DNA of 64,000 bases from Cupriavidus basilensis (GTDB lineage Bacteria; Pseudomonadota; Gammaproteobacteria; Burkholderiales; Burkholderiaceae), in NCBI RefSeq assembly GCF_000876015.1, contig NZ_BBQM01000025.1:1-64000 (forward strand). Reading direction: 5' to 3'. Below the pieces are notes generated by a model. That model did no database searches and was not told the DNA's origin. It worked only from the letters and a program-made list of their open reading frames with translations. A program made the translations under genes and the position numbers. Below, in pieces: positions 15,019-32,744 of the stretch (within the stretch, counting starts at the first letter, position 1; each line of letters begins with the position of its first letter).

Positions 15019-15056
15019 GAGGGTCGGCAGGGATTCATGTAAAAAACCGCAGAAAC
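15019..15056 (+). repeat. Left terminal inverted repeat, 38 bp
   Basis: It starts GAGGGTCGGCAGGGATTCAT and ends AACCGCAGAAAC. All 38 positions are identical to the reverse complement of 32707-32744. 38 bp is the standard Tn3-family repeat length. It ends 4 bases before the stop of the KfrA/TnpT-like gene. Confidence 0.95.
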
Positions 15057-15060
15057 AGGC

Positions 15061-16161
15061 TTAAGTCCCTGTCACAGTTGGGTTTTTATCATTCCTCTGT
15101 GTCATTTTTTCTGCCCCTTCAACAGGGTCTTTCGCGGACGCATCAGGACTGGGCACCGTAGCGCTGAAACGCTCCAGCATGCTGACCACGACCTGCTCTT
15201 GCGCCGTGACGGATGACTTGGCTGCGGTCAGCGCCAGTTCCAGCTGTTGCTTTGCCGTGAGCAGTTCGTTGGCCTTGGCCTCCAACTGTTCGTTCGAGGC
15301 GTTGAGTTGCTTGACGGCCGCCTCCTGCTCAACCAGGCGCCGACCCAACTCCTCGGTGCGCCGTTGTGAAAACCCAAGTTCATCCTTGAGCGGCCGCAGG
15401 CTCCGCAGCTCTTCCTGGAGCTGGTGCAGATCGCCCTGGGCACGGGATAGATCACCCAACAAGCGCGCGTTTTCCTGAAGGGTGTGGACGGCTTGCTGCT
15501 GCTTGGTTGCCAAGGCTTCATTCACGGTGCGCAACTCAGCCTGCAGGTACTGCACCTGCTGCTCATGCTTGCGCTGGTCCTGATCGCGCTGCTCTTTGGT
15601 GGACTGCCGGAAATGCTCCAGTGCCTGGCGGGCATGCTGGTGCTTTTCCTCCAGGGATTGCCGGTGGCGTTCTTCGGCCTCGATGCGCTCCTGCAGATCG
15701 ACTACCTGTTGCGTGAGTTGTGTGCCTTCCAGGATCTTGCCGCGCAGTGACTCGCTGGTTTTTGCATGGGCTGCTTTTTCATCGGCCAACGCCCGCTGGG
15801 TTTGTTCCAGTTGCTGGCGGGCGGACTGGGCCTCGGTATTTAGGGCCGCGGCGGCGTGCTGATACTGCGCCAGCTGCTCCGCGTGCCTGGCCTGCGCCGA
15901 AATGACCCGCTCTTCGGCTTCCTCGTTCACCCGGGTGGCCAACCGCCCCACCAGATCCTGGATCGCCTCGCTGACAGCCACGCGGGTGCCGGTGGCTCCG
16001 CCTTCCTCTTCCTCGATCTCCTTCAGATAGCGGTGGATCGTGGTTTTGGAGCCGCTGCCCAGCTCTTCGCGCACCGCATCGATGGACGGATTCCGCCCGG
16101 TGGCCCGCAATTTATCGCGGGCGCGCAGCACTTCTGATTTGTAGATCCCGGCTCTGGCCAT
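15061..16161 (-). CDS. KfrA/TnpT-like coiled-coil DNA-binding protein
   Basis: A 366-residue protein with an N-terminal KfrA-type DNA-binding domain (residues 1-50; GRNPSIDAVREELGSGSKTT and IHRYLKEIEEEE), then a long predicted coiled coil (about 75-330, rich in Q, E, A and L), then a polar tail. TnpT of Tn4651 has the same plan and helps the TnpS recombinase resolve cointegrates. The position at the transposon end and the tyrosine recombinase at the other end support that role; plasmid KfrA-like function is the alternative. AGAGGTG precedes the ATG at 16161. A perfect inverted repeat 24 bases upstream (16185-16213) is a good candidate for its own operator. Confidence 0.75.
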   Translation of the reverse strand: MARAGIYKSEVLRARDKLRATGRNPSIDAVREELGSGSKTTIHRYLKEIEEEEGGATGTRVAVSEAIQDLVGRLATRVNEEAEERVISAQARHAEQLAQYQHAAAALNTEAQSARQQLEQTQRALADEKAAHAKTSESLRGKILEGTQLTQQVVDLQERIEAEERHRQSLEEKHQHARQALEHFRQSTKEQRDQDQRKHEQQVQYLQAELRTVNEALATKQQQAVHTLQENARLLGDLSRAQGDLHQLQEELRSLRPLKDELGFSQRRTEELGRRLVEQEAAVKQLNASNEQLEAKANELLTAKQQLELALTAAKSSVTAQEQVVVSMLERFSATVPSPDASAKDPVEGAEKMTQRNDKNPTVTGT

Positions 16162-16184
16162 GGCTCACCTCTCTATTTCGTACC

Positions 16185-16213
16185 ATAGTATGTATTATGA
16201 TATTACATACTAT
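16185..16213. promoter_or_regulatory. Inverted repeat, likely operator of the KfrA/TnpT-like gene
   Basis: ATAGTATGTA-(9 bases)-TACATACTAT is a perfect repeat with 10-bp arms, immediately upstream of the KfrA/TnpT-like start and in an AT-rich stretch suitable for its promoter. KfrA proteins bind inverted repeats and repress themselves, so autoregulation is the simplest reading. Confidence 0.6.
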
Positions 16214-16437
16214 TTATGAAGTCAAGAAATTGGGTTTTCTGCCATTTCTAACATTCGGTAATGGTGAATTATTCAATGTGATGCTGGTTTTCGCCCGTTT
16301 CCGCGATGGCGTGGGTACGGATGGCTGTGGATTCGAGTCGATGTGCAATACCTGCAATGCTTTGGTGAGATTCCCTCATCCAGGCCGCAACTTCACCTGA
16401 ATCCGTGTGCTCGGCTCGACCGCAGCTTCATGTTCGA

Positions 16438-16462
16438 GCTACAACATTAATGATGTTGTAGC
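16438..16462. repeat. Inverted repeat, candidate recombination core or operator
   Basis: GCTACAACAT-TAATG-ATGTTGTAGC has perfect 10-bp arms and a 5-base centre. It lies in the 413-bp gap between the divergent KfrA/TnpT-like gene and phnF. No T-run follows, so it is unlikely to be a terminator. Its shape suits a tyrosine-recombinase core site (resolution site of the transposon) or a repressor operator for phnF. I found no second copy in the element. Confidence 0.45.
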
Positions 16463-16509
16463 GCTACGTCCTGGCATCTCGAAAAACCCCGGATAGTCGT
16501 AACGCCAGG

Positions 16510-16574: not shown

Positions 16575-17303
16575 ATGAGCCTCTACGTTGTCAATCGTGA
16601 TTCTGGTCTGGCCCTGTACGCACAGATCGCTCAACAACTGGAGCTGGTCGTACACAACCAATACGCATCCGGGGAATGCTTGCCGTCGGAGGGGGATCTG
16701 GCAGTGCAATTTGGTGTCAACCGCCATACCTTGCGCCGCGCAATAGACGAGCTGGTCGAGGCAGGCCTACTGGAACGCCGTCACGGCCTGGGCATCTTTG
16801 TGCTCGACACACAACTGGACTACCAGATTGGCAAAGGCACGCGTTTCACCGAAAACCTGGCCGCACTTGGGTTCATGACCGAGAACCGCATCCTTCGCAA
16901 GCAGACCATTGGCGCCCTGCCTAGGGTGGCACAACGCCTGACCATTCAGGAAGGGGATGCAGTGCACTGGATTGAGACGTTACGCATGGTGGAGCAACGC
17001 CCCATGTGCTTGATATCGCACTTCGTGCCCGCCGAAAAATTCCCAGACCTCTTCGAGCGTTTCGAAAGCGGATCGCTGCATGCGCTGCTGGGTGCCACAT
17101 ATGGCTGCAAGTTACGCCGAACAGAAAGCCTAGTGACAGCGGTGCTCCCGCAAGGGGACGACGCCAAGACGCTGGGGATGCCGCAGAACCGACCGGTGCT
17201 GCGGGTCAAGAGTGTGAACGTGGACGACCGGGATGGTACCCCGGTCGAATACGCCATTACCCGGTTCCGTGCAGACCGGATCCAACTGCGCATCAACCCC
17301 TGA
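16575..17303 (+). CDS. phnF: GntR-family regulator of phosphonate metabolism
   Basis: A 242-residue HutC/PhnF-type regulator. The N-terminal winged helix covers residues ~10-75 (LALYAQIAQQLELVV, CLPSEGDLAVQFGVNRHTLR, RAIDELVEAGLLERRHGLGI). The C-terminal UTRA ligand domain (from ~95) includes HWIETLRMVEQRPMCLISHF. It is first in the operon and probably represses it or tunes it to a phosphonate or phosphate signal. The stop is 50 bases before phnD. Confidence 0.92.
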   Translation: MSLYVVNRDSGLALYAQIAQQLELVVHNQYASGECLPSEGDLAVQFGVNRHTLRRAIDELVEAGLLERRHGLGIFVLDTQLDYQIGKGTRFTENLAALGFMTENRILRKQTIGALPRVAQRLTIQEGDAVHWIETLRMVEQRPMCLISHFVPAEKFPDLFERFESGSLHALLGATYGCKLRRTESLVTAVLPQGDDAKTLGMPQNRPVLRVKSVNVDDRDGTPVEYAITRFRADRIQLRINP

Positions 17304-17353: not shown

Positions 17354-18295
17354 ATGTATCTGAAACAATCCATCCGCCGTATGCTGTTGGCCACCGGCCT
17401 GGCTCTGATGGCCAGTCCGTTTGCTGCCGTGGCCGCACAAAACGACGGCACGGCCGCCAAGCCGCTGCGCGTAATTTTGGTGCCCGCCGACGGCGGCACC
17501 GAAGACGGCACCAAGAAGGACTTCCAGCCCATTTTCTCGGCCATCGAACAATCGACGGGCCTGAAGTTCGACATCAAGGTCGGTCAGAGCTACGGTTCGG
17601 TGGTGGAGGCCATGTGCAGCGGCGCGGCAGACATTGCCTGGTACGGCCCGCTGTCTTACCTTCAAGCCAAGAGCCGAGGCTGTTCCGAATTGCTGGCGCT
17701 GGCTGTCAGCAAGGGCCAGTCGGTGTACTACTCAGGTCTGTTCGCACGCACCGACAGTGGTATCAACAGCGTCGCCGACCTCAAAGGCAAAAAAGTGGCC
17801 TTGGGCGACGTGAATTCCACCTCCAGCTTTGCCGTGCCAGTGGCCATGATGATGGCCGGTGGCGTACTGCCTGCGCGTGATCTGGGCACCATCAACATGG
17901 CCGGCAGCCATGCCAATGTGCTGAAGGCCTTGGCCGAGGGGCTGGTCGATGCCGGTGGTGCGTCGTTCGACTCCTTCGAAAAAGCCGTCAACGGCAAAGC
18001 GATCGACCCCTCCAAGGTCAAAGTGATCATCAAGAGTGCGGCCATTCCCTATCCGCCGCTGGCCATCCACCCCAAGGTAGATGGTGCCGTCAAGGCCAAG
18101 CTGCGCGAGGCGTTCAACAACGTCGACAAACTGCCCGGCATCACCAAAGACCAGATCCGCGGCTACGGTGGTGGCAAGGTGGACGGCTACACCGCCAATG
18201 TCAGTGAAGAAGACATGGCCAATGCCGGCAAGCTGTTTGAGATGGTCACCGACCCAGTCAAGCAGGACATCATGAAAAAGGCCAGCGCGCGCTAA
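17354..18295 (+). CDS. phnD: Phosphonate ABC transporter substrate-binding protein
   Basis: A 313-residue periplasmic PhnD. The signal peptide covers residues 1-28 (LLATGLALMASPFAAVAA), and the mature part has RVILVPADGGTEDGTKKDF, ADIAWYGPLSYLQA and KKVALGDVNSTSSFAVP. It differs strongly from the ptxB product at 8844, so the two importers are separate lineages. The ribosome-binding site is weak. It captures alkylphosphonates for PhnC-PhnE. Confidence 0.93.
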   Translation: MYLKQSIRRMLLATGLALMASPFAAVAAQNDGTAAKPLRVILVPADGGTEDGTKKDFQPIFSAIEQSTGLKFDIKVGQSYGSVVEAMCSGAADIAWYGPLSYLQAKSRGCSELLALAVSKGQSVYYSGLFARTDSGINSVADLKGKKVALGDVNSTSSFAVPVAMMMAGGVLPARDLGTINMAGSHANVLKALAEGLVDAGGASFDSFEKAVNGKAIDPSKVKVIIKSAAIPYPPLAIHPKVDGAVKAKLREAFNNVDKLPGITKDQIRGYGGGKVDGYTANVSEEDMANAGKLFEMVTDPVKQDIMKKASAR

Positions 18296-18382: not shown

Positions 18383-19180
18383 ATGATCCGCTTTGAATCT
18401 CTCCAAAAAATCTGGCCCGATGGCACCCGGGCGATCAGCGAGGTGTCGCTGGAGATCCCGCAGGGCCAGTTCTGCGTGATCCTCGGCCCTTCGGGTGCGG
18501 GCAAATCCACGCTGTTGCGCGCGGTCAACGGACTCATGCGGCCGACCTCGGGCCGGGTGCTGATCGACGGCATCGAATTCAACACTGCCACGCAGCGCGC
18601 GTTGCGCCAGCGCGTGGCCATGATCCACCAGCACTTCAACCTGACCAACCGCATGAGCGTTGCGGCCAATGTGCTGTCCGGCCTGTTGCCCACGGTCTCC
18701 ACCTTGCGTGCCCTGTCCGGCTGGTTCAAGCCTGAGCAGCGCCAGAAAGCCTGCCAGTTGCTCAACCGCGTCGGCTTGTCACCCACACACCTCCAGCGCC
18801 GTGCGGGCGACTTGTCGGGCGGTCAGCAGCAGCGGGTGGGCATTGCCCGCGCTTTCATGATGGACCCCGAAGTGGTGCTGGCCGACGAACCGGTGGCTAG
18901 CCTGGACCCCAAGATCTCGCGTGACATCCTGAGCCTGATTCGCGACGCTGCGCGCGAGCGCAACGCAACCGTGTTGTGCAGCCTGCACCAGGTCGATCTG
19001 GCCCGTGAGTTTGGCGACCGCATCGTGGGCATGCGCGACGGACGTGTCGTTTTCGACGGCACGCCAGCGGAATTCACCGACGAGCGCGTGCATGCGCTTT
19101 ACCAGGGTGCCCGCTGGGAAGATGCACCAGCGGCCGAGAGCGACGCGCAGCACTCGGTGGCCGGTCTGGCTGTGGCATGA
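18383..19180 (+). CDS. phnC: Phosphonate ABC transporter ATP-binding protein
   Basis: A 265-residue ABC ATPase. Walker A is GPSGAGKST, the Q-loop is MIHQHFNLTNRM, the signature is [15 protein letters not shown], Walker B is VVLADEPVASLDP and the switch is [17 protein letters not shown] precedes the ATG. It energises uptake through PhnE. The stop lies 11 bases before the chosen phnE start. Confidence 0.95.
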   Translation: MIRFESLQKIWPDGTRAISEVSLEIPQGQFCVILGPSGAGKSTLLRAVNGLMRPTSGRVLIDGIEFNTATQRALRQRVAMIHQHFNLTNRMSVAANVLSGLLPTVSTLRALSGWFKPEQRQKACQLLNRVGLSPTHLQRRAGDLSGGQQQRVGIARAFMMDPEVVLADEPVASLDPKISRDILSLIRDAARERNATVLCSLHQVDLAREFGDRIVGMRDGRVVFDGTPAEFTDERVHALYQGARWEDAPAAESDAQHSVAGLAVA

Positions 19181-19191
19181 GGGGCGAAGCG

Positions 19192-20223
19192 ATGACCACA
19201 TCCACACGCCCCATACCCGTGCCGCCCCAGGGCACCGCACTGCACTGGCACCTGAGCGCGCCCTACAACGCCAAACATCTGCTGGTGCTGATCGCCGTCA
19301 TGGTGCTGTTGTTCGTGACCGGACAACGCACCGAAATGGACCGCATGGTGGCCATGACGGCACAGGCCGTGGCCAAGACCGTGGGCCTGGCTGACGATTC
19401 ACAAGTCGCGCGCGGCTTGTCGCGCGTCGGTCAAGCCATGTGGCCACCCGCCATCGCAGAAACCGAAGAGGTGGGCCGGATTCAGGACCTGGATCGCCAG
19501 AAGCTGCCCCTGTTCTCGCACATCGAGACCCAGGAGCGCGTCGAGCAGAAGATGAATCTGGACACGCTGAAGATGGAAGCCACGACGGAAACCGTCGAAG
19601 TGCTGGTCAAGCCGGTCGGCTATGTCTGGACGGTTTTCATCAAGATGATCGAGACCCTGGAGATTGCGCTGTGGGGCACGATCCTGTCGGTGCTGGTGTC
19701 GATTCCCCTGGCGTATTTCGCGGCCCGCAACTACAGCCCCAACCGTTTTACCTACACCGCTGCCCGCGGCACCATCAGTCTGCTGCGTTCAGCGCCGGAA
19801 CTCATCGTCGCTTTGTTCCTGGTGCTGGCCTACGGCTTTGGCCCCATCGCTGGCGTGCTGGCGCTGGGCCTGCATGCGGCCGGCTTCCTGGGCAAGTTCT
19901 ACGCCGAGGACATCGAGAACGCCGACAAGAAGCCGCAAGAGGCGCTGGAGGCCATCGGCGCGGGCAAGCTCAAGACGCTGTGGTACGGCGTCATCCCCCA
20001 GGTCTTGCCGCAATACATCGCCTACACCGCCTACATCCTGGACCGCAACCTGCGCATGGCCACCGTCATCGGTCTGGTGGGCGCGGGCGGCATCGGCCAG
20101 GAACTCAAGGGCCGTTTTGACATGTTCCAGTACGGCCATGTCATGACCATCCTGATCGCGATCTTCGTCTTTGTGTTCGTGCTGGACCAGTTGCAGGCGC
20201 GCATCCGCGCCAAGCTGATCTGA
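19192..20223 (+). CDS. phnE: Phosphonate ABC transporter permease
   Basis: A 343-residue inner-membrane permease, longer than the classical ~276-residue PhnE because of a ~95-residue hydrophilic segment between the first membrane helix (LLVLIAVMVLLFVTG, ~30-45) and the second (VWTVFIKMIETLEIALWG). The EAA-like loop is ENADKKPQEALEAIGAGK. The start at 19192 has GAGGGG at the right distance; an in-frame ATG at 19177 overlaps the phnC stop and is possible. Confidence 0.92.
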   Translation: MTTSTRPIPVPPQGTALHWHLSAPYNAKHLLVLIAVMVLLFVTGQRTEMDRMVAMTAQAVAKTVGLADDSQVARGLSRVGQAMWPPAIAETEEVGRIQDLDRQKLPLFSHIETQERVEQKMNLDTLKMEATTETVEVLVKPVGYVWTVFIKMIETLEIALWGTILSVLVSIPLAYFAARNYSPNRFTYTAARGTISLLRSAPELIVALFLVLAYGFGPIAGVLALGLHAAGFLGKFYAEDIENADKKPQEALEAIGAGKLKTLWYGVIPQVLPQYIAYTAYILDRNLRMATVIGLVGAGGIGQELKGRFDMFQYGHVMTILIAIFVFVFVLDQLQARIRAKLI

Positions 20224-20249: not shown

Positions 20250-20729
20250 ATGACAAACACTTCTGAAGCACCGGATCGTGCGCAGTGGCTGCGGCTGTGG
20301 TCGGCCTTGCCGGCCGCAGCGGTCAAGGCCCTGGCGGCCGATCTGGCGGGCCAGCACCGGGTCGAAGACCTGGCGTTGCCGCAATCCGGTCTGGGCCTGC
20401 TGCCGCTGACCGACAGCGCCCTGGGCGATACCTATTTCATCGGTGAGATTCCCTTGGCACAAGCGCATGTGCGGGTCACGACCACCCAAGGGCAGTCGAT
20501 CGAAGGCGCGGCCATTCTGGTGGACGACCGTGCCGGTGTGGCCCGTTCCATGGCCATCCTGGACGCGGTGCTGGCGGCCCGCATGCCAGGTTGTGAAGCG
20601 GCCCTGCGGTTGCTCACCCAGGGTGCGACCGCCGTGGCGGAACAAGGCCGCCAGCGCCGCGCCTTACTCGCGGCCACGCGGGTGGACTTTGCCCTGCTGG
20701 GAACGAACGAGGAGGACGATGATGAATGA
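20250..20729 (+). CDS. phnG: C-P lyase core subunit PhnG
   Basis: A 159-residue PhnG. The family pattern is visible in QSGLGLLPLTDSALGDTYFI, GEIPLAQAHVRV and ARSMAILDAVLAARM. PhnG is part of the PhnG2H2I2J2 core and, with PhnI, forms the ribose-1-phosphonate triphosphate intermediate from ATP. AAGGAA precedes the ATG. It overlaps phnH by 8 bases. Confidence 0.93.
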   Translation: MTNTSEAPDRAQWLRLWSALPAAAVKALAADLAGQHRVEDLALPQSGLGLLPLTDSALGDTYFIGEIPLAQAHVRVTTTQGQSIEGAAILVDDRAGVARSMAILDAVLAARMPGCEAALRLLTQGATAVAEQGRQRRALLAATRVDFALLGTNEEDDDE

Positions 20730-21306
20730 GACTGGGATGGCGGCGGCACCGGCAGAAGCCGCGTGGCGCATCTGGCAAGCGCCGCGCCAGCAAACGGCGT
20801 TTCGCCAGTTGATGACCGCGTTTTCCTATCCGGGCCGCGTGGTGCCACTGGCCGATGGCGCTGAATCGGCGCTCCTGCTGGTGTTGACCACCCTGGTGGA
20901 CAGCGCCTGTGCGCTGGCCGATCCGCTGCACGCGCTATCAAGCGACGATCTGCGCCGACTGGGCGTGCGCTCGGCCAGTGTGGAGGCGGCCGAGTTCGTG
21001 CTGGCCGATGGCAACCGTTTGCTGGAGGCCACGCCGCGCCTGGGATCGCTGGAAAACCCCGAACAAGGCGCGACCGTGGTGATGCGCGTCTCCCGTTTCG
21101 GTGAGGGTCCCCATCTGCGGCTCACCGGGCCGGGTATTCAACACGAGCAGGTGCTGCAGGTCAGCGGCATCGATCCGGGCTGGTGGAAGCAACGGTCCGA
21201 ATGGAATGCCCACTTCCCGCTGGGCGTGGACCTGATTCTGGTGAGCGGGCACGAGGTCGCGGTATTGCCCCGAACCACCCACATCAACCTCAAAGGAGCC
21301 CACTGA
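20722..21306 (+). CDS. phnH: C-P lyase core subunit PhnH
   Basis: A 194-residue PhnH (AFRQLMTAFSYPGRVVPLAD near the N-terminus and FPLGVDLILVSGHEVAVLPR at the C-terminus are family hallmarks). It belongs to the cytoplasmic C-P lyase core. GAGGAGGA lies just before two adjacent ATG codons at 20719 and 20722; the second has the better spacing. The stop shares one base with the phnI start. Confidence 0.93.
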   Translation: MNETGMAAAPAEAAWRIWQAPRQQTAFRQLMTAFSYPGRVVPLADGAESALLLVLTTLVDSACALADPLHALSSDDLRRLGVRSASVEAAEFVLADGNRLLEATPRLGSLENPEQGATVVMRVSRFGEGPHLRLTGPGIQHEQVLQVSGIDPGWWKQRSEWNAHFPLGVDLILVSGHEVAVLPRTTHINLKGAH

Positions 21307-22427
21307 TGGGATACGTTGCCATCAAGGGCGGTGGCCGGGCCATCGCCGGTGCCGAAGCCGCCGTCGAAGCCCTGCGCTGCGCCGAAGGGCCAGCGGGTAC
21401 GCCGCTCACGCTGTCGGCCATCGAACAGCAGTTGCGGTTGCTGACATCGCGCGTCGTGTCGGAAGGGGGCCTCTACCACCCACGCCTGGCCGCTCTGGCC
21501 ATCAAACAGATGCAGGGCGACACACTGGAAGCGGCGTTCGCTCTGCGCGCCTACCGCTCCACCAAGCCACGCCTGATGGATGTGCCGGTGCAGGACACGA
21601 GCCGCATGCGCCTAATCCGCCGGATTTCGAGCGCTTTCAAGGACATCCCCGGCGGACAGATGCTGGGCCCGACCACCGACTACGCGCTGCGCCTGATGCG
21701 TCTGGATTTGGCCAACGAGTCGCCCGAGGACTTTCGCGCGGTCTCGCGGCGGTTTCTGGACGGCGTGGCCGACACCGACCTGCCCGACAGCTTCCCCAAG
21801 GTGGTCGATGCCTTGCGTGACGAAGGCTTGCTGCCGCCGCTGACCCGGCGCGCCCATGCGGCGTTCGACATCACCCGCGACCCGCTGGTTTTCCCAGTGC
21901 CGCGTTCGGCGGCCCTGGCCACCATGGCACGCGCCGAAACCGGCTCGCTCTTGGCGATTGCGTATTCCAACATGCGTGGCTATGGCGACGTGCACCCCAC
22001 CATCGCCGAGCTGCGCGTGGGCTATGTGCCGGTGATGCTGCCGCACCCGGTGACAGGCGAGCCCATCGAAGCCGGTGAGGTACTGATGACCGAATGCGAA
22101 GTGGTGGCCATGTTTGAGGGTGATGCTACCGACGGCCCACCCACTTTCACCCTAGGCTATGGCGCCTGTTTCGGTCACAACGAAGTCAAGGCCATCGCCA
22201 TGGCCATCCTCGACCGCGCCCTGCAAAAGGGTATGCGCGACGGTCCCAGCAACCCGTCGGAAGACCCGGAATTCGTGCTGCTGCACGTCGATGGCGTGGA
22301 TTCGATGGGCTTTGCCAGTCACTACAAGATGCCGCACTACGTGACCTTCCAGTCCGACATGGACCGGCTGCGCACCACGCAGGACAAGGCAACCGCACAA
22401 CCGACCCAAGAAGGAGCGCCATCATGA
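21306..22427 (+). CDS. phnI: C-P lyase core subunit PhnI (nucleosidase/phosphonylase)
   Basis: A 373-residue PhnI, beginning MGYVAIKGGGRAIAGAEAA, a strongly conserved start. With PhnG/H/L it attaches the phosphonate to ribose of ATP and releases adenine. AAGGAG precedes the ATG. The stop overlaps the phnJ start (ATGA), indicating coupled synthesis of the two core subunits. Confidence 0.95.
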   Translation: MGYVAIKGGGRAIAGAEAAVEALRCAEGPAGTPLTLSAIEQQLRLLTSRVVSEGGLYHPRLAALAIKQMQGDTLEAAFALRAYRSTKPRLMDVPVQDTSRMRLIRRISSAFKDIPGGQMLGPTTDYALRLMRLDLANESPEDFRAVSRRFLDGVADTDLPDSFPKVVDALRDEGLLPPLTRRAHAAFDITRDPLVFPVPRSAALATMARAETGSLLAIAYSNMRGYGDVHPTIAELRVGYVPVMLPHPVTGEPIEAGEVLMTECEVVAMFEGDATDGPPTFTLGYGACFGHNEVKAIAMAILDRALQKGMRDGPSNPSEDPEFVLLHVDGVDSMGFASHYKMPHYVTFQSDMDRLRTTQDKATAQPTQEGAPS

Positions 22428-23329
22428 ACCCGGGCTACGAACTGCCCCTGGACGAGGCGGGCTACAGCTTCGGCTTCCTGGACGAATACGCCAAGCGCGA
22501 GGTGCGCCGCACCATCCTCAAGGCGATCAGCATCCCCGGTTACCAGACGCCCTATGCCTCACGCGAAATGCCTATGGGGCGCGGCTTTGGCACCGGCGGT
22601 CTGCAGGTTACGCTGTCGCTGATTGGCGAGGGCGACACCCTGAAGGTGATCGACCAGGGCGCGGACGACTCCGTCAACGCGGTGAACCTGCGTCACTTTG
22701 TGGAACTGACCTGCCCGGGCGTGGACACCACAGAACACACGCTTGATGCCACTCTGATCCAGTCGCGCCACCGCATTCCGGAAACGCCGCTGACCGAAGC
22801 GCAGGTGTTGATCCTGCAAGTGCCGTATCCGGACCCACTGGTGGTGGTGGAACCCTCCGAGGCTCGACGCAAGGTCATGCACGGCGAAGGCGACTATTCG
22901 CGGCTGCTGACCAAGCTGTACGAGGACATCGTGCAGTTTGACGAGATCACCATCTCGCACCGCTACCCCACGCGCATCAACGGCCACTATGTGATCGACC
23001 CCAGCCCGATCCCGCGCTACGACGTGCCGCAGTTGCACCAGAGCCCGGCGCTGATCCTGCTGGGTGCGGGGCGCGAGAAAAAAATCTATGCGGTGCCGCC
23101 GTACACCCGCGCCGACCCGCTGGCGTTCGACGACGTGCCATTCCGCACCGAAGACTTCACCAACGAACACGGCCAGCGCCGCGCCTGCGAACGGTGCGGC
23201 GCCACCGACAGCTTCCTCGACGAGCTCATTGCCGACGATGGCGGCAAGCACTGGCATTGCTCGGACTCGGATTTTTGCAATAGCCGTATGGCCCGCCAGG
23301 CTGAACAAGCTCAGGAGACCACGGTATGA
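22424..23329 (+). CDS. phnJ: Radical-SAM C-P lyase PhnJ
   Basis: A 301-residue catalytic subunit that cleaves the carbon-phosphorus bond. The four cysteines of the unusual C-terminal 4Fe-4S site are present: C255 and C258 (CERC), C279 (HWHC) and C285 (SDFC), matching the CX2C...CX5C plan of E. coli PhnJ. The N-terminal region ISIPGYQTPYASREMP holds the Gly-containing segment expected near the radical Gly. It is followed by phnK with an ATGA overlap. No residue seen argues against activity. Confidence 0.96.
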   Translation: MNPGYELPLDEAGYSFGFLDEYAKREVRRTILKAISIPGYQTPYASREMPMGRGFGTGGLQVTLSLIGEGDTLKVIDQGADDSVNAVNLRHFVELTCPGVDTTEHTLDATLIQSRHRIPETPLTEAQVLILQVPYPDPLVVVEPSEARRKVMHGEGDYSRLLTKLYEDIVQFDEITISHRYPTRINGHYVIDPSPIPRYDVPQLHQSPALILLGAGREKKIYAVPPYTRADPLAFDDVPFRTEDFTNEHGQRRACERCGATDSFLDELIADDGGKHWHCSDSDFCNSRMARQAEQAQETTV

Positions 23330-24895: not shown

Positions 24896-26046
24896 ATCCC
24901 ATTTTGCTGACCCATGCCCGCGTGGTGTTCCCCACCGAAGTCCGTGACAACGTGGCCATCCTGATCGAAGGCGACACCATCACAGCCATCGACCCGGCCA
25001 GCAGCGCAGGTGCCACCGAGATCGACCTGCGCGGTCGCACCCTGATGCCAGGTCTGATCGACCTGCACTGCGACGCAATGGAGAAAGAGGTGGAGCCGCG
25101 GCCCGGCGTGCACTTCCCGCTGGAGTTCGCCTGTGCCCAGGCCGACAAGCGCAATGCGGCGGCCGGCATCACGACGGTGTTTCATGCCCTGTCCTTTGCC
25201 AACCACGAGCTGGGCGTGCGCAACAACGCCTTCGCCGCCGAGATCGCCCGTTCGATTGGCGACTGGCAGGCCCATGCCCTGATCGACAACCGGGTGCATG
25301 TGCGTTACGAGGTGACGGACGAAACGGCGCCGCCGGTGCTGTCGGCGCTGCTGCAGGACGGTCATGCGCACCTCATGTCTTTCATGGATCACAGCCCCGG
25401 TCAGGGTCAGTTCCGCGATGTCGAGGCGTACCGCGCCTACCTGGCCAAGACCTACAAGACCGATGAGGCGCAGATCGACGACATCCTGGCGCGCAAAGCC
25501 GGGGCCGCACAGGGCGCCATGCGGCGCATGGAGCAGCTTGCGGAACTGGCCCGTGCGTGCGGCGTGTCCATTGCCAGCCACGACGACGACAGCCCGCAGA
25601 AAGTGGCGACCGTCAAGGCCCTGGGCGCTGTGGTGTCGGAGTTTCCGGTGAACCTGGAGACGGCACAGGCCGCCCGTGCACAAGGCCTGGCCACCTTGTT
25701 TGGCGCTCCCAACATCCTGCGCGGCAAGTCCCAGTCGGGCAACATGCGTGCCCTCGATGCCGTGCTGGCCGGTGTCGCCGACTGCCTGTGCGGTGACTAC
25801 TCGCCAGCGGCGCTGTTGCCGTCGGTCATGCGCTTGCCCGATCTGGCCGGCATCCCCCTGGCCGAGGCTGTGGCCCTCGTCACGTGCAACCCAGCTCGTG
25901 CTGCAGGTTTGCACGACCGGGGCGAGATCGCCGTGGGCAAGCGCGCAGACCTGATTGCGGTCAAAACCATGGGCGGACTGCCACAGGCCGAGCGGGTCTG
26001 GTCGGGCGGTAAAGCTTCGCTGGTCGCGCATTTTGACCACGCCTGA
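24892..26046 (+). CDS. phnM: RPnTP hydrolase PhnM
   Basis: A 384-residue amidohydrolase-superfamily enzyme that removes pyrophosphate from ribose-1-phosphonate 5-triphosphate. Metal-binding features are HCDAMEKEVEPRPGV near residue 60 and SIASHDDDSP near 225, with the active-site stretch GAPNILRGKSQSGNMRALDA. The C-terminal beta strand RGEIAVGKRADLIAV is typical. It sits inside the tightly packed operon. Confidence 0.95.
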   Translation: MNPILLTHARVVFPTEVRDNVAILIEGDTITAIDPASSAGATEIDLRGRTLMPGLIDLHCDAMEKEVEPRPGVHFPLEFACAQADKRNAAAGITTVFHALSFANHELGVRNNAFAAEIARSIGDWQAHALIDNRVHVRYEVTDETAPPVLSALLQDGHAHLMSFMDHSPGQGQFRDVEAYRAYLAKTYKTDEAQIDDILARKAGAAQGAMRRMEQLAELARACGVSIASHDDDSPQKVATVKALGAVVSEFPVNLETAQAARAQGLATLFGAPNILRGKSQSGNMRALDAVLAGVADCLCGDYSPAALLPSVMRLPDLAGIPLAEAVALVTCNPARAAGLHDRGEIAVGKRADLIAVKTMGGLPQAERVWSGGKASLVAHFDHA

Positions 26047-26059
26047 GAGGGACTGGCAC

Positions 26060-26629
26060 ATGCGAACTCGCCTCATCTACGTGGTCGGCGCCTCGGGCAG
26101 CGGCAAGGACACGCTCATGGGCCATGCCCGCCAGAAGCTGGCGGGTGATCCCAGGGTGTGTTTTGCCCATCGCTACATCACCCGACCCGCAACGGCAGGC
26201 GGCGAAAACCATGTGGCCTTGACCACGGAGGAATTCACCGCTCGCCAGAACGGCAAGCTCTTTGCCATGCACTGGTCCAGCCACGGCCTGCATTACGGAA
26301 TCGGCATCGAGATCAACCAGTGGCTGGGCAAAGGCATCACGGTGGTGATCAACGGCTCGCGGGAATACCTGGACGAGGCCCGCCAACGTTACCCGGAGCT
26401 GCTGCCGGTGACGATTGACGTGGCCACCACCGTGCTGCGTGATCGGCTGCTGGCCCGTGGCCGCGAGGATGCCGAATCCATTGAGCAGCGCCTGCACCGC
26501 CATGAAACGTTGCGCCTGCAGCCCGTGCCCGGTGTGCTCATCCAGAACAACGGACCCGTCGAGGTGGCCGGCGAAGCGCTGATCCGGTTGATCGCAGAAC
26601 ACACCCAAGGAGCGCCAGTATGCGTGTGA
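26060..26629 (+). CDS. phnN: Ribose 1,5-bisphosphokinase PhnN
   Basis: A 189-residue kinase with P-loop GASGSGKDT and the guanylate-kinase-like lid RYITRPATAGGENHVAL. It converts ribose 1,5-bisphosphate to PRPP, the last step of the C-P lyase pathway. The start is the ATG at 26060 after GAGAGGGACT. It overlaps phnP by 10 bases. Confidence 0.94.
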   Translation: MRTRLIYVVGASGSGKDTLMGHARQKLAGDPRVCFAHRYITRPATAGGENHVALTTEEFTARQNGKLFAMHWSSHGLHYGIGIEINQWLGKGITVVINGSREYLDEARQRYPELLPVTIDVATTVLRDRLLARGREDAESIEQRLHRHETLRLQPVPGVLIQNNGPVEVAGEALIRLIAEHTQGAPVCV

Positions 26630-27387
26630 GTTTTCTGGGCACGGGCGCTGCGGGCGGGGTTCCGCTCTACGGTTGCACCTGCCGGGCCTGTGAACGCGCA
26701 AGGACCGAGCCACACTTCGTCCGCCGCCCTTGCAGCGCCCTGATTGAATCCGGAGGTACCCGGGTGCTACTGGATGCCGGGCTGATGGACCTTCACGAAC
26801 GGTTTGCGCCGGGTAGCCTGGACGCGATTGTTCTCACGCACTACCACCCCGACCACGTGCAGGGACTCTTTCATCTGCGCTGGGGTAAGGGGACGCCCAT
26901 CACAGTCTATGGCCCACCAGACAGCGAAGGCTGCGCCGATTTGTTCAAGCACCCTGGTGTACTGGCCTTCGAGACGGTGCACAAGTTCGAGGCCTTCACC
27001 GTCGGGGCGCTGCGCCTGACGCCCCTGCCGCTGCTTCACTCCAAACCCACGCTGGGCTATGCCATCGAGGGCACCCAGGGCCAACGCTTCGCCTACCTCA
27101 CAGACACCCTGGGTTTGCCGCCGAAGTCGGCCAAGTTCCTGCGCGCCTGGGGCGACTTTGACATGGCCATCGACTGTTCCTATCCGCCGCACCCGACCCC
27201 GAAAAACCACAACGATTGGGACGAAGCACATCGGTGTGCCATCGAATCTGGTGCCCGCATCACCTGGCTCACCCATGCCGGTCATGCGCTGGACGACTGG
27301 ATGATGGAAGAGACGCCGAGCGTCGCAAGTCATATCCGGCTGGCCCGGGACGGCAGCACGGCCGACATACCGTCCCAAACGCAATGA
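26620..27387 (+). CDS. phnP: Cyclic ribose phosphodiesterase PhnP
   Basis: A 255-residue metallo-beta-lactamase-fold enzyme that opens 5-phosphoribosyl 1,2-cyclic phosphate. The metal motif is THYHPDHVQG, with later ligands in LLHSKPTLGY, DCSYPP and WLTHAGH. The Cys-rich start (YGCTCRACERART) is typical of PhnP. AAGGAG precedes the ATG inside the end of phnN. The stop overlaps the transporter that follows. Confidence 0.94.
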   Translation: MRVSFLGTGAAGGVPLYGCTCRACERARTEPHFVRRPCSALIESGGTRVLLDAGLMDLHERFAPGSLDAIVLTHYHPDHVQGLFHLRWGKGTPITVYGPPDSEGCADLFKHPGVLAFETVHKFEAFTVGALRLTPLPLLHSKPTLGYAIEGTQGQRFAYLTDTLGLPPKSAKFLRAWGDFDMAIDCSYPPHPTPKNHNDWDEAHRCAIESGARITWLTHAGHALDDWMMEETPSVASHIRLARDGSTADIPSQTQ

Positions 27388-28232
27388 ACGCGCCGCTGGC
27401 ACTGGCCCTGTCGGTGGCCATGCACGTCACCTGGAACCTGATGGCACGGCATTTGCCCAGGGAATCGAACCCGCTGTGGTGGGTGTTGCTCGCCCATCTG
27501 GTGCTGTTTGCGCCCTGGGGGTTCTGGGAGCTGGCGACAACCGTCGTTTGGTCACTGGAGATGACGCTGCTACTGATCGTATCGGCCACTGCGAATGTGG
27601 TTTATTTCTCCGGTCTGGCCAGGGCCTACGAGCACGCACCGGTCGCACTGGTCTATCCTCTGGTGCGCAGTTCACCTCTTTTCATTGCGATCTGGGGCAC
27701 GCTGTTCTTCGGTCAAAATCTCCCGCCCATTGCCTGGCTGGGCATTGGCATCAGCGTGCTGGGCTTGCTCGTCATGGCATCGAGTGCTCAACAGGGGTCG
27801 GATCGACGAGCATTCCGATGGGCCATGCTGGCCATGTTGGCGACAAGCGTTTATTCCCTGAGTGACAAGGCGGCCACCGAACACATCCCAAGCTTCATGG
27901 GGCTCGTGGGTTTTCTGTCCGTCGGCTACCTGGCATCCTGGATCAGCATGACCTTGCGCATGCATCGGCACACCCGCAGTTGGGTGCCGGCACAGCGCAT
28001 TGATCTCGCGTCGCTGGCTCTTGGCGGAACCTGTATCGGTCTCGCCTACGCCTTGGTTATCCACGCCATGCGCCAGTTGCCTGCGGCGGAGGTCGTGTCG
28101 TACACCAACGCCGGTATCGTGCTCGCTGCAGTTCTCTCCATTTTTTTGTTCAATGACAAAGTCGGATGGCAAAAGAGAATCATGGGGGTCGTGATCATCA
28201 CGAGTGGTTTGGGGGTGCTTGCCATGAGGTGA
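27384..28232 (+). CDS. DMT/EamA-family transporter at the end of the phn operon
   Basis: A 282-residue membrane protein with about ten predicted helices and the EamA repeat pattern (LARAYEHAPVALVYPLVRSS and MRQLPAAEVVSYTNAGIVLA). The start codon overlaps the phnP stop (ATGA), so it is translated with the C-P lyase genes. The substrate is unknown. Export of a by-product or import of a phosphonate-linked organic group are possibilities; a small-molecule exporter is the family default. Confidence 0.85.
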   Translation: MNAPLALALSVAMHVTWNLMARHLPRESNPLWWVLLAHLVLFAPWGFWELATTVVWSLEMTLLLIVSATANVVYFSGLARAYEHAPVALVYPLVRSSPLFIAIWGTLFFGQNLPPIAWLGIGISVLGLLVMASSAQQGSDRRAFRWAMLAMLATSVYSLSDKAATEHIPSFMGLVGFLSVGYLASWISMTLRMHRHTRSWVPAQRIDLASLALGGTCIGLAYALVIHAMRQLPAAEVVSYTNAGIVLAAVLSIFLFNDKVGWQKRIMGVVIITSGLGVLAMR

Positions 28233-28311
28233 GCGACACAATACCAACCATCGCACACCAGCATTCCAACCCGGCTCGCGACCTGCCGGTGAAGTAAAAG
28301 CGACTTCCGAT

Positions 28312-29646
28312 ATGTCCCAAATTTCCCGATACGTCGAGGCCGCCGAGCGTGACAACACGCGTCGAAGCTATGCCGCAGCCATTCGCCATTTCGAGGTGGA
28401 GTGGAAAGGCTTGCTGCCAACGACCGCTGATGCAACCTCCCGTTACCTGGCTGACCACGCGGCCACGCTGGCGATCAGCACCCTCCGTCAGCGGCTCGCC
28501 GCGCTCTCGCGCTGGCACATCGACCATGGTTTTGCAGACCCGACCAAGGCACCCTTGGTGCGCCAGGTTCTCAAAGGCATTCGCTCCATTCACTCGGTTG
28601 CAGAAAAGCGGGCACGCCCCCTTGAAATCGATGTCGTCCAGCAGATCGATCAATGGCTGGGGGTGGCCATCGGCAACGCAGAACGCAGCGATGACCGATT
28701 GGCGCTGCTTCGCCACACCCGCAACCGCAGTTTGCTGCTGCTGGGTTTCTGGCGGGGATTTCGATCGGACGAGTTGGTCAACCTGCGGGTGGAGAACGTG
28801 GAAGTCTCGCCTGGCGAAGGGCTGTCGTGCTACCTGAGCCGCAGCAAGGGCGATCGGCAGATGCTGGGCCGCGTATACAAATGTCCGGCGCTGTCCCGCC
28901 TGTGTCCTGTGACGGCTTTCACGGCATGGGTCAGTCTGGTCGGCCTGACCCAAGGCCCGGTGTTTCGCAAGATCGACCGCTGGGGGCGAATCGGTCAAGA
29001 AGGGCTGCATGCCAACAGCCTGATCCCATTGTTGCGCAGCCTTTTGGCTGAGGCCGGGGTCGCCGCTTCCGAGGCATACAGCAGCCACTCCCTGCGTCGC
29101 GGATTTGCCGGTTGGGCTCGCGCCAGCGGTTGGGACATCAAGGAACTCATGGAGTACGTGGGCTGGAAGGATGTCAAATCGGCCATGCGTTATCTGGATG
29201 CCTCCGGCAGCGCACTTCAGGCCCGGTTTGAGGCGGGTCTCGCAACACTGGCCCCAGCAGATCGAGCGGATCGGTCACCACCGCCTTCGATGCACGCGCC
29301 GGCCGAGCAAACCAAGGAACAGGCCCAGAGGCCCCGTCTGCCTGAGCTCGCAACACCATCGGCAATCCTGCGCGTCACAGTGTTGCTGGCCCGGTTCAGC
29401 CCACAATCGCGCGGGCTGACGAGAGGCCGGCGGCTGATCGAGCAGACCTGCTTCGAGCGCTACGCCATGCAGCGCTTGAATACCGAGGGCACACAGTACG
29501 AACTGACAGTGCCCTACGAATCCAGGGATTCACTGGAAGAGGCGATTGCCGCTTTGCTCGATGACATGTACCGCATCGCCGAGGACAACCAGTGCCTGCT
29601 GGAGGCTGCGTTTCACGAGCCGGCCACCGACTCGTATTGGGACTGA
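28312..29646 (+). CDS. Tyrosine recombinase of the transposon (TnpS/TnpI-like)
   Basis: A 444-residue site-specific recombinase. The core-binding domain covers ~1-100. Catalytic residues are R151 (GFRSDEL), K179, H259 and R262 (SSHSLRRG), W285 in place of the second His (EYVGWKD), and Y294 (AMRYLD). About 120 residues beyond the catalytic domain form an extra C-terminal region of unknown function. In Tn3 elements such enzymes resolve cointegrates. The partner is probably the KfrA/TnpT-like protein at the other end of the element. It ends 56 bases before tnpA. Confidence 0.85.
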   Translation: MSQISRYVEAAERDNTRRSYAAAIRHFEVEWKGLLPTTADATSRYLADHAATLAISTLRQRLAALSRWHIDHGFADPTKAPLVRQVLKGIRSIHSVAEKRARPLEIDVVQQIDQWLGVAIGNAERSDDRLALLRHTRNRSLLLLGFWRGFRSDELVNLRVENVEVSPGEGLSCYLSRSKGDRQMLGRVYKCPALSRLCPVTAFTAWVSLVGLTQGPVFRKIDRWGRIGQEGLHANSLIPLLRSLLAEAGVAASEAYSSHSLRRGFAGWARASGWDIKELMEYVGWKDVKSAMRYLDASGSALQARFEAGLATLAPADRADRSPPPSMHAPAEQTKEQAQRPRLPELATPSAILRVTVLLARFSPQSRGLTRGRRLIEQTCFERYAMQRLNTEGTQYELTVPYESRDSLEEAIAALLDDMYRIAEDNQCLLEAAFHEPATDSYWD

Positions 29647-29702
29647 AGGGCTGGGATGATGACGGCGGATGGCACGACGCACCAGCGGGGGAGGCCTCAC
29701 GA

Positions 29703-32690
29703 ATGACTACGCTTCATGAGACGGCCTATCCCCATCTGAAGCCCGACCCCACTGAGAGGGAGCTGGCAGAACTCTTCACACCCACCGAGGCGGAACGGGC
29801 GCTGGTGGCGGGAGTCGGCAAACGGCCTTTACCTCGCGTGGCCGCCCTCATTCACCTGAAGGTTTTCCAGCGCCTGGGGTATTTTCTGACACTGTCCGAT
29901 GTGCCGCAGGTGATCAGGGAACACGTTGCACAGCACGCGGGTGTCCCGCGGGCGCCAGCGCTGGCGGACCTCAAGCGCTTTGAGGCCTCGGGCTCGCGCA
30001 TGGTGGTCTTCACAGCATTGCGTCGCTATCTGAACGTCAAACCACTCAACCCGGCGGGGTACGCCTGGCTGGGCGTTGTGGCGGACACCGCGGCCGAGAC
30101 GAAACACGCCGTGGCCGACATCATCAACGTGATGCTGGAGGAGTTGGTCCACCATCGCTGCGAATTGCCCGCCTTCTCGACGCTGGATCGGATGGCGTTT
30201 CGTGCCCGGGAAAAGAGCAACAACCAGCATTTCTCCGCCATCGCTGGGCAACTGACGTCACAGACGAAGACATTGATCGATGGCTTGCTCAAGACGGCCA
30301 CGGGCGAGTCGGCGTCACCCTGGCAAATGCTCAAGCGCGAGCCCAAGCGGCCCACCAACAAAGAAACACGGACCTACATCCAGCACATCCGGCGTCTGCA
30401 GCACCTGGTGGAGCAACTTCCCAAGCCCGACGTGCCCGTGCCCAAGCTCAAGCAGTTCCGGCTGCTGGCGCGCGCGCTCAATGCCACTGAGATGGCTGAA
30501 CTCAAGCCACAAAAGCGCTATGCGCTGGTGGTGATCTTCATTCGGGCGCAGCATGCCCAATCGCTGGACGACGCTGCCGACCTGTTCATCCGTCTCATGC
30601 AGAACCTGGAGAACAATGCCCGGCAGAAACTGTTGTCCTTCCAGCAGGAGCGCGTCCACAAGACCGACATGCTGGTCGGGCAGCTCAAGGACATCCTGGG
30701 TGCCTACCAGTTGGTTGGGACCGACACCCAACGCGTCGAAGCCATCAGCACGACCCTGGTGGCCGAAGTGGACGAGCTGCTGAACGAATGCGAACAGCAT
30801 CTGGCCTATGCCGGGCGCAACCACCTGCCGTTCCTGCTGCAGCCGTACAAGATGGTGCGAGCGCAGCTGCTCAACTGCATCGACATCGCGTCGCCCAAGG
30901 CCAGCAGCGAGGACCTGGTGGTGGAGCGGCTGATGGAAGCCCTCTCCAAACTGCGCGACAACCGTGCCGACACCGTACCGCTGGACATGCTGGGCCTGAG
31001 TGAAGACACGGATTTGCGCTGGATGTCGGCCCAGTGGAGAAAGCTTGTGCTGGTCAAACCGGCAGGCAAGGGCCGCGCGGAGTCCGTCCGCCGCCGGTAT
31101 TTTGAGCTGGCCGTCATGCACGCCGTCAAGGACGATCTGAAGTCCGGAGACCTCTTCATCAAGTTCGGGGAGCGCTACGACGACTACCGCGAGCAGTTGG
31201 TCGATGACGAAACCTTTGAACGCGAGCTGGGCGACTATGGGCAGGTCACGGGCATCGAGACGGAGCCCGGCGCCTTCGTGTCGAAGCTGAAATCGTCCAT
31301 GGCGCTGCGAGCCATGGAAATCGATGCCGGATTTCCAGAAAACGCCCATGCTGAAATCGTCGATGGACGCCTGATCCTCAGAAAACCGCCTCGCTCAGAC
31401 ATTGTCGAGGCCGCCGCGCGCATCGACGGCATGATCACCGAGCGGATGGAGGCGGCCAGCATTGTGGACGTGATGATCGACACCGAGCGGTGGCTGGACC
31501 TTCACAAGCTGTTTCGTCCGCTGGCGGGGACCGACAGTCGCCTTGAGGACTTGCGCATGCGCGTGATCACGACCTTGTTCTGCTATGGCTGCAACCTGGG
31601 ACCCGTTCAGACCGCCAAATCGATCAAAGGTCTGAGTCGGCGTCAGATTTCCTGGCTGAACCTGAAATACGTCAGCGAAGACCTTCTGGACAAGGCCATC
31701 GTCAAGGTGATTAACGCCTACAACAAGTTCGAACTGCCCGGTTACTGGGGCACCGGCAAACACGCATCGGCCGATGGCACCAAGTGGAACCTGTACGAGC
31801 AGAACCTACTGTCCGAGCACCACATCCGCTATGGCGGCTACGGCGGCATCGGCTACTACCATGTCTCCGACAAGTTCATCGCACTGTTCAGTCACTTCAT
31901 TTCTTGTGGCACCTATGAGGGGATCCACATCCTGGATGGGCTGATGAGCAACGAGTCCGACATTCGGCCCGACACGATCCACGGTGACACGCAGGCACAG
32001 AGCTACCCGGTTTTTGCGCTGGCTCACTTGCTTGGCATCCAGCTCATGCCGCGCATCCGAGGCATCCAGGACCTGAAATTCCATCGCCCGCAGGCGGGCA
32101 CCGTGTACCAGAACATCAATACGCTGTTCAGCGACGTGATCGACTGGCAGTTGATTGAACTGCATCTGCCGGCGATGCTGCGGGTGGCTGTGTCTATCAA
32201 GACGGGAAAGATCACGCCATCGGCCATCCTGCGCCGACTTGGCACTTACAGCCGCAAGAACAAGCTGTACTTCGCCTTCGTCGAACTCGGCAAAGTGATC
32301 CGGACCATGTTTCTGCTGAGCTACATCGGGGACGTCGGACTGCGCAAGGTGATCCACGCCGAAACCAACAAGAGCGAACAATTCAACGGCTTTGCCGGCT
32401 GGTCGTTTTTCGGGGGAGAGGGGATCATTGCCGAAAACATCCGGCACGAGCAGCGCAAGGTCATCAAGTACAACCACCTCGTGGCCAACATGATCATCCT
32501 GCACAACGTGGTGGGCATGACACGTGTACTGCGAGAGCTTCGCGACGAAGGCACCGAGATCACGCCGGAGATATTGGGCGGCCTTGCGCCGTTCCGCACG
32601 GCCCATATCAACCGATTTGGAGACTACACACTCGACTTCCGCCGGAAGATCGGTCCGCTGGATTTCGAAGTCACCATTATTCCAATATAA
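29703..32690 (+). CDS. tnpA: Tn3-family transposase TnpA (second copy)
   Basis: A 995-residue transposase of the same subfamily as the one at 4753, with N-terminal DUF4158 (MTTLHETAYPHLKPDPTERE) and a catalytic core: D in ASADGTKWNLYEQ, D in IHGDTQAQSY, E in SFFGGEGIIAENIRHEQ. GGGGGAGG precedes the ATG at 29703. The stop is 16 bases before the right terminal repeat. It should act on the 38-bp repeats at 15019 and 32707. Confidence 0.96.
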   Translation: MTTLHETAYPHLKPDPTERELAELFTPTEAERALVAGVGKRPLPRVAALIHLKVFQRLGYFLTLSDVPQVIREHVAQHAGVPRAPALADLKRFEASGSRMVVFTALRRYLNVKPLNPAGYAWLGVVADTAAETKHAVADIINVMLEELVHHRCELPAFSTLDRMAFRAREKSNNQHFSAIAGQLTSQTKTLIDGLLKTATGESASPWQMLKREPKRPTNKETRTYIQHIRRLQHLVEQLPKPDVPVPKLKQFRLLARALNATEMAELKPQKRYALVVIFIRAQHAQSLDDAADLFIRLMQNLENNARQKLLSFQQERVHKTDMLVGQLKDILGAYQLVGTDTQRVEAISTTLVAEVDELLNECEQHLAYAGRNHLPFLLQPYKMVRAQLLNCIDIASPKASSEDLVVERLMEALSKLRDNRADTVPLDMLGLSEDTDLRWMSAQWRKLVLVKPAGKGRAESVRRRYFELAVMHAVKDDLKSGDLFIKFGERYDDYREQLVDDETFERELGDYGQVTGIETEPGAFVSKLKSSMALRAMEIDAGFPENAHAEIVDGRLILRKPPRSDIVEAAARIDGMITERMEAASIVDVMIDTERWLDLHKLFRPLAGTDSRLEDLRMRVITTLFCYGCNLGPVQTAKSIKGLSRRQISWLNLKYVSEDLLDKAIVKVINAYNKFELPGYWGTGKHASADGTKWNLYEQNLLSEHHIRYGGYGGIGYYHVSDKFIALFSHFISCGTYEGIHILDGLMSNESDIRPDTIHGDTQAQSYPVFALAHLLGIQLMPRIRGIQDLKFHRPQAGTVYQNINTLFSDVIDWQLIELHLPAMLRVAVSIKTGKITPSAILRRLGTYSRKNKLYFAFVELGKVIRTMFLLSYIGDVGLRKVIHAETNKSEQFNGFAGWSFFGGEGIIAENIRHEQRKVIKYNHLVANMIILHNVVGMTRVLRELRDEGTEITPEILGGLAPFRTAHINRFGDYTLDFRRKIGPLDFEVTIIPI

Positions 32691-32706
32691 TCATAAGGTT
32701 AGGTTC

Positions 32707-32744
32707 GTTTCTGCGGTTTTTTACATGAATCCCTGCCGACCCTC
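32707..32744 (-). repeat. Right terminal inverted repeat, 38 bp
   Basis: The reverse complement is identical over all 38 positions to the left repeat at 15019-15056. Its outer end CCCTC is followed directly by the AATTC duplication. Confidence 0.95.

Follow-up and report, generated by a model that had tools for sequence, protein, structure and literature searches.

The use of phosphonate, phosphite and hypophosphite is held to spread sideways, and to our knowledge the carrier of such phosphorus pathways has rarely been seen. The stretch of Cupriavidus basilensis DNA analysed here (the window: 64,000 nucleotides on contig C38, with w marking a window position) has a phosphonate operon between two transposon ends, and it raises the question of which piece of DNA actually moved. 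The initial annotation, made from this stretch, held that 17,726 bp had moved as one unit. In our opinion, what moved in this genome was most likely a larger composite, which carries an htx-ptx locus as well.

Excerpts of earlier papers describe a ptx module on Acinetobacter plasmids (PMC10117892), a phosphite island of Desulfotignum flanked by transposases (PMC4046663), an island of C. metallidurans with phosphonate genes and the transposon Tn6048 (PMC2864759) and a phn operon in strains of Paracoccus yeei (PMC11578231). Excerpts of two further papers (PMC4465626, PMC10746228) contain nothing on phn or htx cargo in Tn3 transposons. Among the titles and abstract beginnings listed in our literature search, none mentions phn or htx genes as the cargo of a Tn3 transposon; these come mostly without the subscription literature, hence this is no proof that such an element is unpublished.

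The phn transposon and its cargo

The inner transposon occupies w15019-32744 (17,726 bp). Its terminal inverted repeats, the left one at 15019-15056 on the forward strand and the right one at 32707-32744 on the reverse strand, are identical in 38 of 38 bp, just as the initial annotation had it, and a perfect pair of this length is far beyond chance. The pentamer AATTC lies immediately outside both, at 15014-15018 and at 32745-32749; at the base composition of the window, two 5-mers agree by chance once in 690. The same AATTC also stands directly before a further copy of the left end on C38 (pentamer at 260976-260980, end at 260981), and the pentamer at the right end therefore equals those flanking the inner and the outer left end alike. 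Hence the pair at 15014 and 32745 is not the only possible target duplication.

The cargo genes were named by profile search (NCBIfam, Pfam) and all lie on the forward strand. They begin with the regulator gene phnF (16575-17303; TIGR02325 above cut-off), followed by phnD for a binding protein (17354-18295; TIGR01098 and PF12974 above cut-off, the PhnD equivalog TIGR03431 below its cut-off), phnC for an ATPase (18383-19180; TIGR02315 above cut-off) and phnE for a permease (19177-20223; TIGR01097 above cut-off). The lyase genes proper start with phnG (20250-20729; TIGR03293 and PF06754 above cut-offs). Next come an open frame that contains phnH with an internal start (20443-21306; TIGR03292 above cut-off, match at residues 116-280), an open frame that contains phnI (21183-22427; PF05861, residues 43-402), the C-P lyase gene phnJ (22424-23329; PF06007), phnK (23326-24156; best match TIGR02323, below its cut-off), phnL (24170-24895; TIGR02324 above cut-off) and phnM (24892-26046; NF011989 above cut-off). 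An open frame containing phnN (25955-26629; TIGR02322 above cut-off, residues 38-215), phnP (26620-27387; TIGR03307 above cut-off) and the open frame of a phosphonate-associated EamA-type permease, 'phn_DUF6' (27216-28232; TIGR03340 above cut-off), complete the set. Eleven of the 13 phn products pass the cut-off of the model that bears their own name (NCBIfam; Pfam for PhnI and PhnJ); the exceptions are PhnD, which passes broader models only, and PhnK, whose best match stays under its cut-off.

The predicted C-P lyase operon has phnGHIJKLM complete, with phnN and phnP present. The gene list proposed at the outset, phnF-phnDCE-phnGHIJKLMNP plus a transporter, is borne out by the profiles, the transporter being the EamA permease. 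Profiles and intact ends likewise agree with the description of a complete Tn3-family transposon bearing a whole C-P lyase operon, and on these grounds we accept that description for the inner unit.

The gene order, EamA included, recurs on plasmid RPME01 of Methylibium petroleiphilum PM1, where 12 of the 13 proteins compared are 56-83% identical and PhnG 39% (PhnH lies outside the comparison). PM1 was considered as a carrier of the phn transposon and rejected. The Tn3-type tnpA near its phn genes is bounded by a separate pair of 69-bp repeats, with phn outside them, and the encoded TnpA is 23% identical to that of the phn transposon in the C-terminal half.

Transposition genes and the cargo slot

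TnpA of the phn transposon has the DDE_Tnp_Tn3 domain (PF01526), which places it in the Tn3 family; in its longest frame tnpA runs from 29592 to 32690 on the forward strand, with NF033527 and PF01526 above cut-offs, and many relatives align from residues 16-38 onward only. The tyrosine recombinase gene tnpS (28312-29646, forward strand; PF00589) lies directly before it. At the other end of the element is tnpT (15061-16161, reverse strand; PF11740), which encodes a KfrA_N-domain resolution accessory protein. All three genes are open frames. Beside tnpT, at 16185-16213, sequence comparison locates the core of an rst-like site, an inverted repeat whose 9-bp arms equal those of the repeat in the tnpT-tnpS gap of Tn4651; with substitutions, this repeat is kept in seven of seven aligned elements.

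Compared with Tn4651, which we take to be the name and extent of the transposon in pWW0, identity is 55% for TnpS, 43% for TnpT and 33% for TnpA, and TnpA is 25% identical to that of Tn21. Since the protein identities and the rst-like site agree, we assign the phn transposon, by its sequence, to the Tn4651-type (TnpS/TnpT) Tn3 transposons. In this type of resolution system, according to an excerpt of a published description, rst separates tnpS from a divergently oriented tnpT (PMC7157771). The two elements share the divergent tnpT and tnpS, the rst-like repeat with equal arms beside tnpT and the KfrA_N domain of TnpT. They differ in layout: in Tn4651 the tnpT-tnpS gap is 180 bp and tnpA is about 48 kb off, whereas in the phn transposon 12 kb of phn cargo separate rst from tnpS, and tnpS adjoins tnpA. 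The phn transposon thus departs from the usual arrangement of the subgroup, tnpT adjoining tnpS, which is not a stated requirement.

A search for copies with other cargo, which the initial annotation had proposed, turned up related backbones whose slot is filled by genes for metal resistance or catabolism. Loci were fetched with TnpA (best 80 of 102), supplemented by plasmid records and extensions. Cargo lies between tnpT and tnpS in at least eight distinct elements, namely the phn transposon, one on an Acidovorax defluvii contig and those at G004, G007, L023, L010, L011 and L019. The two genes are adjacent at seven loci (L032, L033, L058, L060, L070, L088, L092) and in Tn4651; L065 was kept out of this count, its tnpT and tnpS being only 26-36% alike and distant from tnpA. 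In a quick TnpA tree, in which Tn21 and Tn4651 have long branches, the cargo-gap and adjacent sets separate across a single branch, with 65 rows unlabelled; the tree excludes L013, L014, L045, L053, L075, L076 and loci with a TnpA match of 850 residues or fewer.

An alignment of seven elements is conserved through the rst-like site near tnpT; beyond it the elements share little before tnpS begins. What fills the slot elsewhere are chromate genes, MerR and MerP, CadR and a P-type ATPase, a CzcA-type pump, acyl-CoA enzymes or an acetolactate-synthase-like protein. The chromate element of the Variovorax sp. RA8 plasmids and the mercury, cadmium, metal-efflux and catabolic elements at L023, L019, G007 and G004 and in Acidovorax defluvii have the same backbone order and slot as the phn transposon, with TnpA 89-96% identical, and differ in cargo. 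No second left end was seen in these stretches. The last frame before tnpS is co-directional with it in all seven elements checked (in four of them this frame is not named by a family search), and the stretch 28000-28500 yielded no terminator-like site; for both reasons it is possible that tnpS is transcribed from the cargo.

Duplications of 5 bp occur in five of the eight other copies with both ends readable (Acidovorax, G004, G006, L019 and Comamonas pYAZ2) and are lacking in three, both Variovorax RA8 copies and the one in Pandoraea; G007 does not count here because its contig ends at the repeat. The copy on pYAZ2 of Comamonas testosteroni (L146 20001-23909, continuing into L148 across the record start) has both transposon ends at 100% and a TACAA duplication. 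It was considered as a minimal cassette with new cargo and rejected, since its inner gene codes for another Tn3 transposase, which shares 73% identity with the one in PM1; the ends of this inner unit presumably are of the IS1071 kind. In a sample of 369 genomes of the class the left end gave, besides our own copies, one 133-base match at 77%.

The unit that moved

Left of the inner transposon, also on the forward strand, lies a locus in which two genes are clear. One is htxB (8844-9740), for a hypophosphite-binding protein that agrees with PDB 5me4 at 260 of 265 aligned residues, and the other is ptxD (11497-12567), whose product matches the phosphite dehydrogenases of the PDB with 478 bits. 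Excerpts of two papers identify 5me4 as HtxB of Pseudomonas stutzeri WM88 (PMC5700983, PMC6629693), to which the protein encoded here is thus 98% identical. HtxA is seen only as a neighbouring PhyH-type 2-oxoglutarate dioxygenase (7917-8819; PF05721, distant matches to PDB dioxygenases), a candidate named by the adjoining htxB. The permease gene htxC (9759-10712; PF00528), the ATPase gene htxD (10713-11546; PF00005) and the gene for a ptxE-like LysR regulator (12572-13441; PF03466, PF00126) are named by their place.

Reportedly, Alcaligenes faecalis WM2072 has a locus htxABCD-ptxDE and Pseudomonas stutzeri WM88 an htx locus. The gene kinds and the order reported for WM2072 match w7917-13441; unlike those loci, htx-ptx here adjoins identified transposon ends and a whole phn operon. 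No htxAB was found outside our own genome in a sample of 398 genomes of the phylum. From the gene content predicted here, the composite joins genes for phosphite use, and probably for hypophosphite use, with those for a C-P lyase.

The second left end of our genome starts outside the window at C38:260981, with 1.5 kb to go to the end of the contig. It equals the inner left end over the first 166 bp, after which comes a methyltransferase gene, fused in frame to the tail of tnpT. The same structure is found in Pandoraea terrigena and Burkholderia aenigmatica. The Pandoraea contig has an outer left end (6463), an inner left end and a right end (28795). It differs from our inner 17,726 bp by one mismatch, and by none over the 523 bp to the left of the inner left end, AATTC included; the identity spans w14496-32744 and stops at the last base of the right repeat. 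The outer left ends of both genomes are likewise identical from their first base, while the outermost flanks differ. Inward of the outer repeat the two are identical wherever they align, with a 1.3-kb insertion in the Pandoraea interior and then an IS3-type sequence that replaces w7779-14495, htx-ptx being absent. The Pandoraea right end matches neither left end in a 5-bp duplication.

The Burkholderia aenigmatica plasmid has w7910-16023 (8,114 bp) at 100% together with the outer left end, and phn is absent; the IS3-type sequence known from Pandoraea stands at the left edge of its htx-ptx. Judging by these matches, we take the copies in both species to be remnants of the composite. The one in Burkholderia aenigmatica (L009 15443-26519) lies between two 564-bp cadR-bearing stretches that are 95.7% alike. 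Acinetobacter indicus has the left end over 304 bp at 100%, then another junction and htx genes at 98% as far as mid-ptxD; no right repeat was found there within 11 mismatches. In Undibacterium the htx-ptx segment and the tnpS-tnpA right end, both at 99.9%, lie beside a different, inverted phn operon. The Undibacterium contig (L108-L111 in a row), at 30447-54269, has phn proteins 61-90% identical to ours (PhnH outside the comparison) and looks like a reshuffled island. Among the other genomes compared, none with the whole composite and both cargoes was seen.

As the sequence left of 15019 is common to Pandoraea (523 bp) and Burkholderia aenigmatica, it belongs to the mobile DNA, and the claim that the 17,726 bp moved as one unit is not supported in that form. 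The accompanying claim, that AATTC is duplicated at the inner ends, can be followed only insofar as the pentamer is present outside both; the copy that precedes the outer left end, at C38:260976-260980, and the one after the right end appear to be the better pair. The anatomy is there to be read, its ends are common to several genera, and the identity with Pandoraea ends exactly at the outer repeats. We consider it likely, with good though not full confidence, that a composite of 26,513 bp (not counting a later insertion, element 1, described below), consisting of the outer left end, htxABCD-ptxDE, the inner left end, phn and a single right end, was inserted between AATTC copies in a probable conjugative plasmid and was afterwards split by element 1.

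The alternative that survives best, unlikely as we find it, is that the 17,726-bp phn transposon inserted alone at an AATTC of the plasmid and that the outer AATTC is there by chance. It would explain the AATTC immediately outside both inner ends, related single elements of the Tn4651 type do produce 5-bp duplications, and the inner join, too, leaves one reading frame uninterrupted. However, the inner left flank recurs in Pandoraea (523 bp) and in Burkholderia aenigmatica (about 7.1 kb of the 8,114 bp), and the right flank in Pandoraea is a different one. Moreover, since the window has only one right-type copy of the 38-bp repeat, a surrounding htx-ptx transposon would be left without a right end.

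Several tests were applied to the joins themselves. With G+C contents of 51.8% in the inner left flank, 72.4% in the outer left flank and 63.2% in the right flank, overall composition does not decide between the inner and the outer join; nor does a reading-frame test of the target, because frames are open across both. The codon-position G+C has equal phase on either side of the outer join, which mildly supports it. The initial annotation had also suggested looking for the empty site. This gave none: neither the joined flanks (601 nt), compared with the plasmid collection and with 198 genomes including our own, nor the joined frame (258 residues), compared with the plasmids and with 298 genomes including our own, met a relative that spans the join. 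A frame at C38 about 260029-260980 and window 32745-33137 may be split by the composite.

A different objection accepts the composite and regards it as a relic, in which the outer left end was left behind by a deletion and movement took place by conjugation and homologous recombination, not by TnpA. The Pandoraea copy without a duplication fits this, as do the IS3-type sequence and the deletions that distinguish the copies, and the differing junctions past the left end, after 166 bp (our genome, Pandoraea, Burkholderia aenigmatica) or after 304 bp (Acinetobacter). Yet the identity between our genome and Pandoraea ends exactly at both outer repeats, as transposition predicts, tnpA, tnpS and tnpT are open and the rst-like site is in place; we therefore think it quite improbable.

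A survey of PhnJ in 198 genomes (own included) bears on the last alternative. One copy, 50-55% identical to that of the transposon, is present in 55 of the 59 same-genus genomes; in our own genome C38 bears the 100% copy, and C39 another with 53% identity. Close PhnJ proteins were found elsewhere only in Pandoraea (100%, beside another of 55%) and in one genome of the order (79%). An operon ancestral to the host, with repeats that are a coincidence of neighbouring insertion sequences, could point to phnJ in those 55 genomes, but we give it practically no credence, for these copies, and that on C39, are of the 50-55% type, and the identical operon of Pandoraea sits within the same repeats. Because 55 of 59 same-genus genomes carry only the other PhnJ, the operon on the transposon is by its sequence relationships foreign, and a predicted second C-P lyase in this host. 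The initial annotation's reference to horizontal spread finds support here, as the element is common to different genera and its operon differs from the usual one of the genus.

Probable carrier plasmid, proposed mechanism and meaning

Element 1, a second Tn3-family element inside the composite, has its tnpA at 4711-7737 on the forward strand (49% to the first tnpA) and its right repeat at 7741-7778, so that w7779 is the first base beyond; its left part and left repeat are absent from the assembly. The last bases of C38 and w7779 are contiguous, over 6 bases, in Undibacterium sp. and on a plasmid of Acinetobacter indicus, and for this reason the two ends of the contig appear to belong to a single composite that element 1 interrupts. 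It is simplest to picture C38 as a circular plasmid in which element 1 later divided the composite, with the break in the assembly at that point. C38 encodes TrbB/VirB11-like, TrbE/VirB4, TrbI, CagX, TrbL, coupling, ParA-like and KfrA-like proteins, and parts of it match Cupriavidus plasmids; from this gene content, the composite is probably carried by a conjugative plasmid.

Other features were noted along the way. Within element 1 (window 1-7778), left of tnpA, are genes for VgrG and a DUF4123 protein, parts of type VI secretion; a search for relatives of these (E up to 1e-15) gave none in 39 related stretches, eight of which have a tnpA with more than 60% likeness to the one in element 1. 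Next to the transposon on its right side, at window 33156-34057, is a pair of Xre/MbcA antitoxin and RES-domain toxin genes. At window about 51530-56780 are imuA, a Y-family polymerase gene and an error-prone DNA polymerase gene, 73-81% identical to listed Cupriavidus plasmids.

How could the composite have arisen and moved? A sister transposon with htx-ptx cargo may have received the phn transposon by insertion. Such a sister is suggested by Acinetobacter indicus, which joins the identical left end to htx by a different junction. One right end would then have been lost, for example by recombination between the two tnpS-tnpA-right-end modules, so that a single right end, at 32744, remained beside two left ends. 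Either of these could be paired with it by TnpA, and use of the outer one would carry hypophosphite, phosphite and phosphonate use as one unit. Insertion of the composite would have been replicative, duplicating AATTC at the outer ends, with resolution by TnpS and TnpT at rst. The predicted functions of the cargo and the closure across the contig ends are likewise parts of the model that we infer. In the composite reading, the AATTC that precedes the inner left end is there by chance or, if the nesting took place in this way, survives from an older duplication as its left half, and would agree with the outer AATTC by chance. That coincidence, 1 in 690 by the composition of the window and perhaps likelier given A/T-rich targets, is the weakest point of the composite reading.

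More tentatively still, and with more doubt than conviction, one may speculate that a single family of composites carried hypophosphite, phosphite and phosphonate use among Betaproteobacteria and into Acinetobacter, which would explain the near-identical htx reported in unrelated bacteria, and that a clade of TnpS/TnpT transposons moved its cargo slot into the tnpT-tnpS gap, with tnpS read from the cargo and resolution tied to cargo expression.

For phosphorus-scavenging pathways a carrier with defined ends and open transposition genes is now visible. The Pandoraea copy differs by one base in 17.7 kb, so the transfer is recent. That elements for metal resistance, catabolism and phosphorus use have their cargo in one common slot also points to a transposon family of modular build, found here mainly in Burkholderiales. 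If the composite works as proposed, one event would give its recipient access to three kinds of reduced phosphorus.
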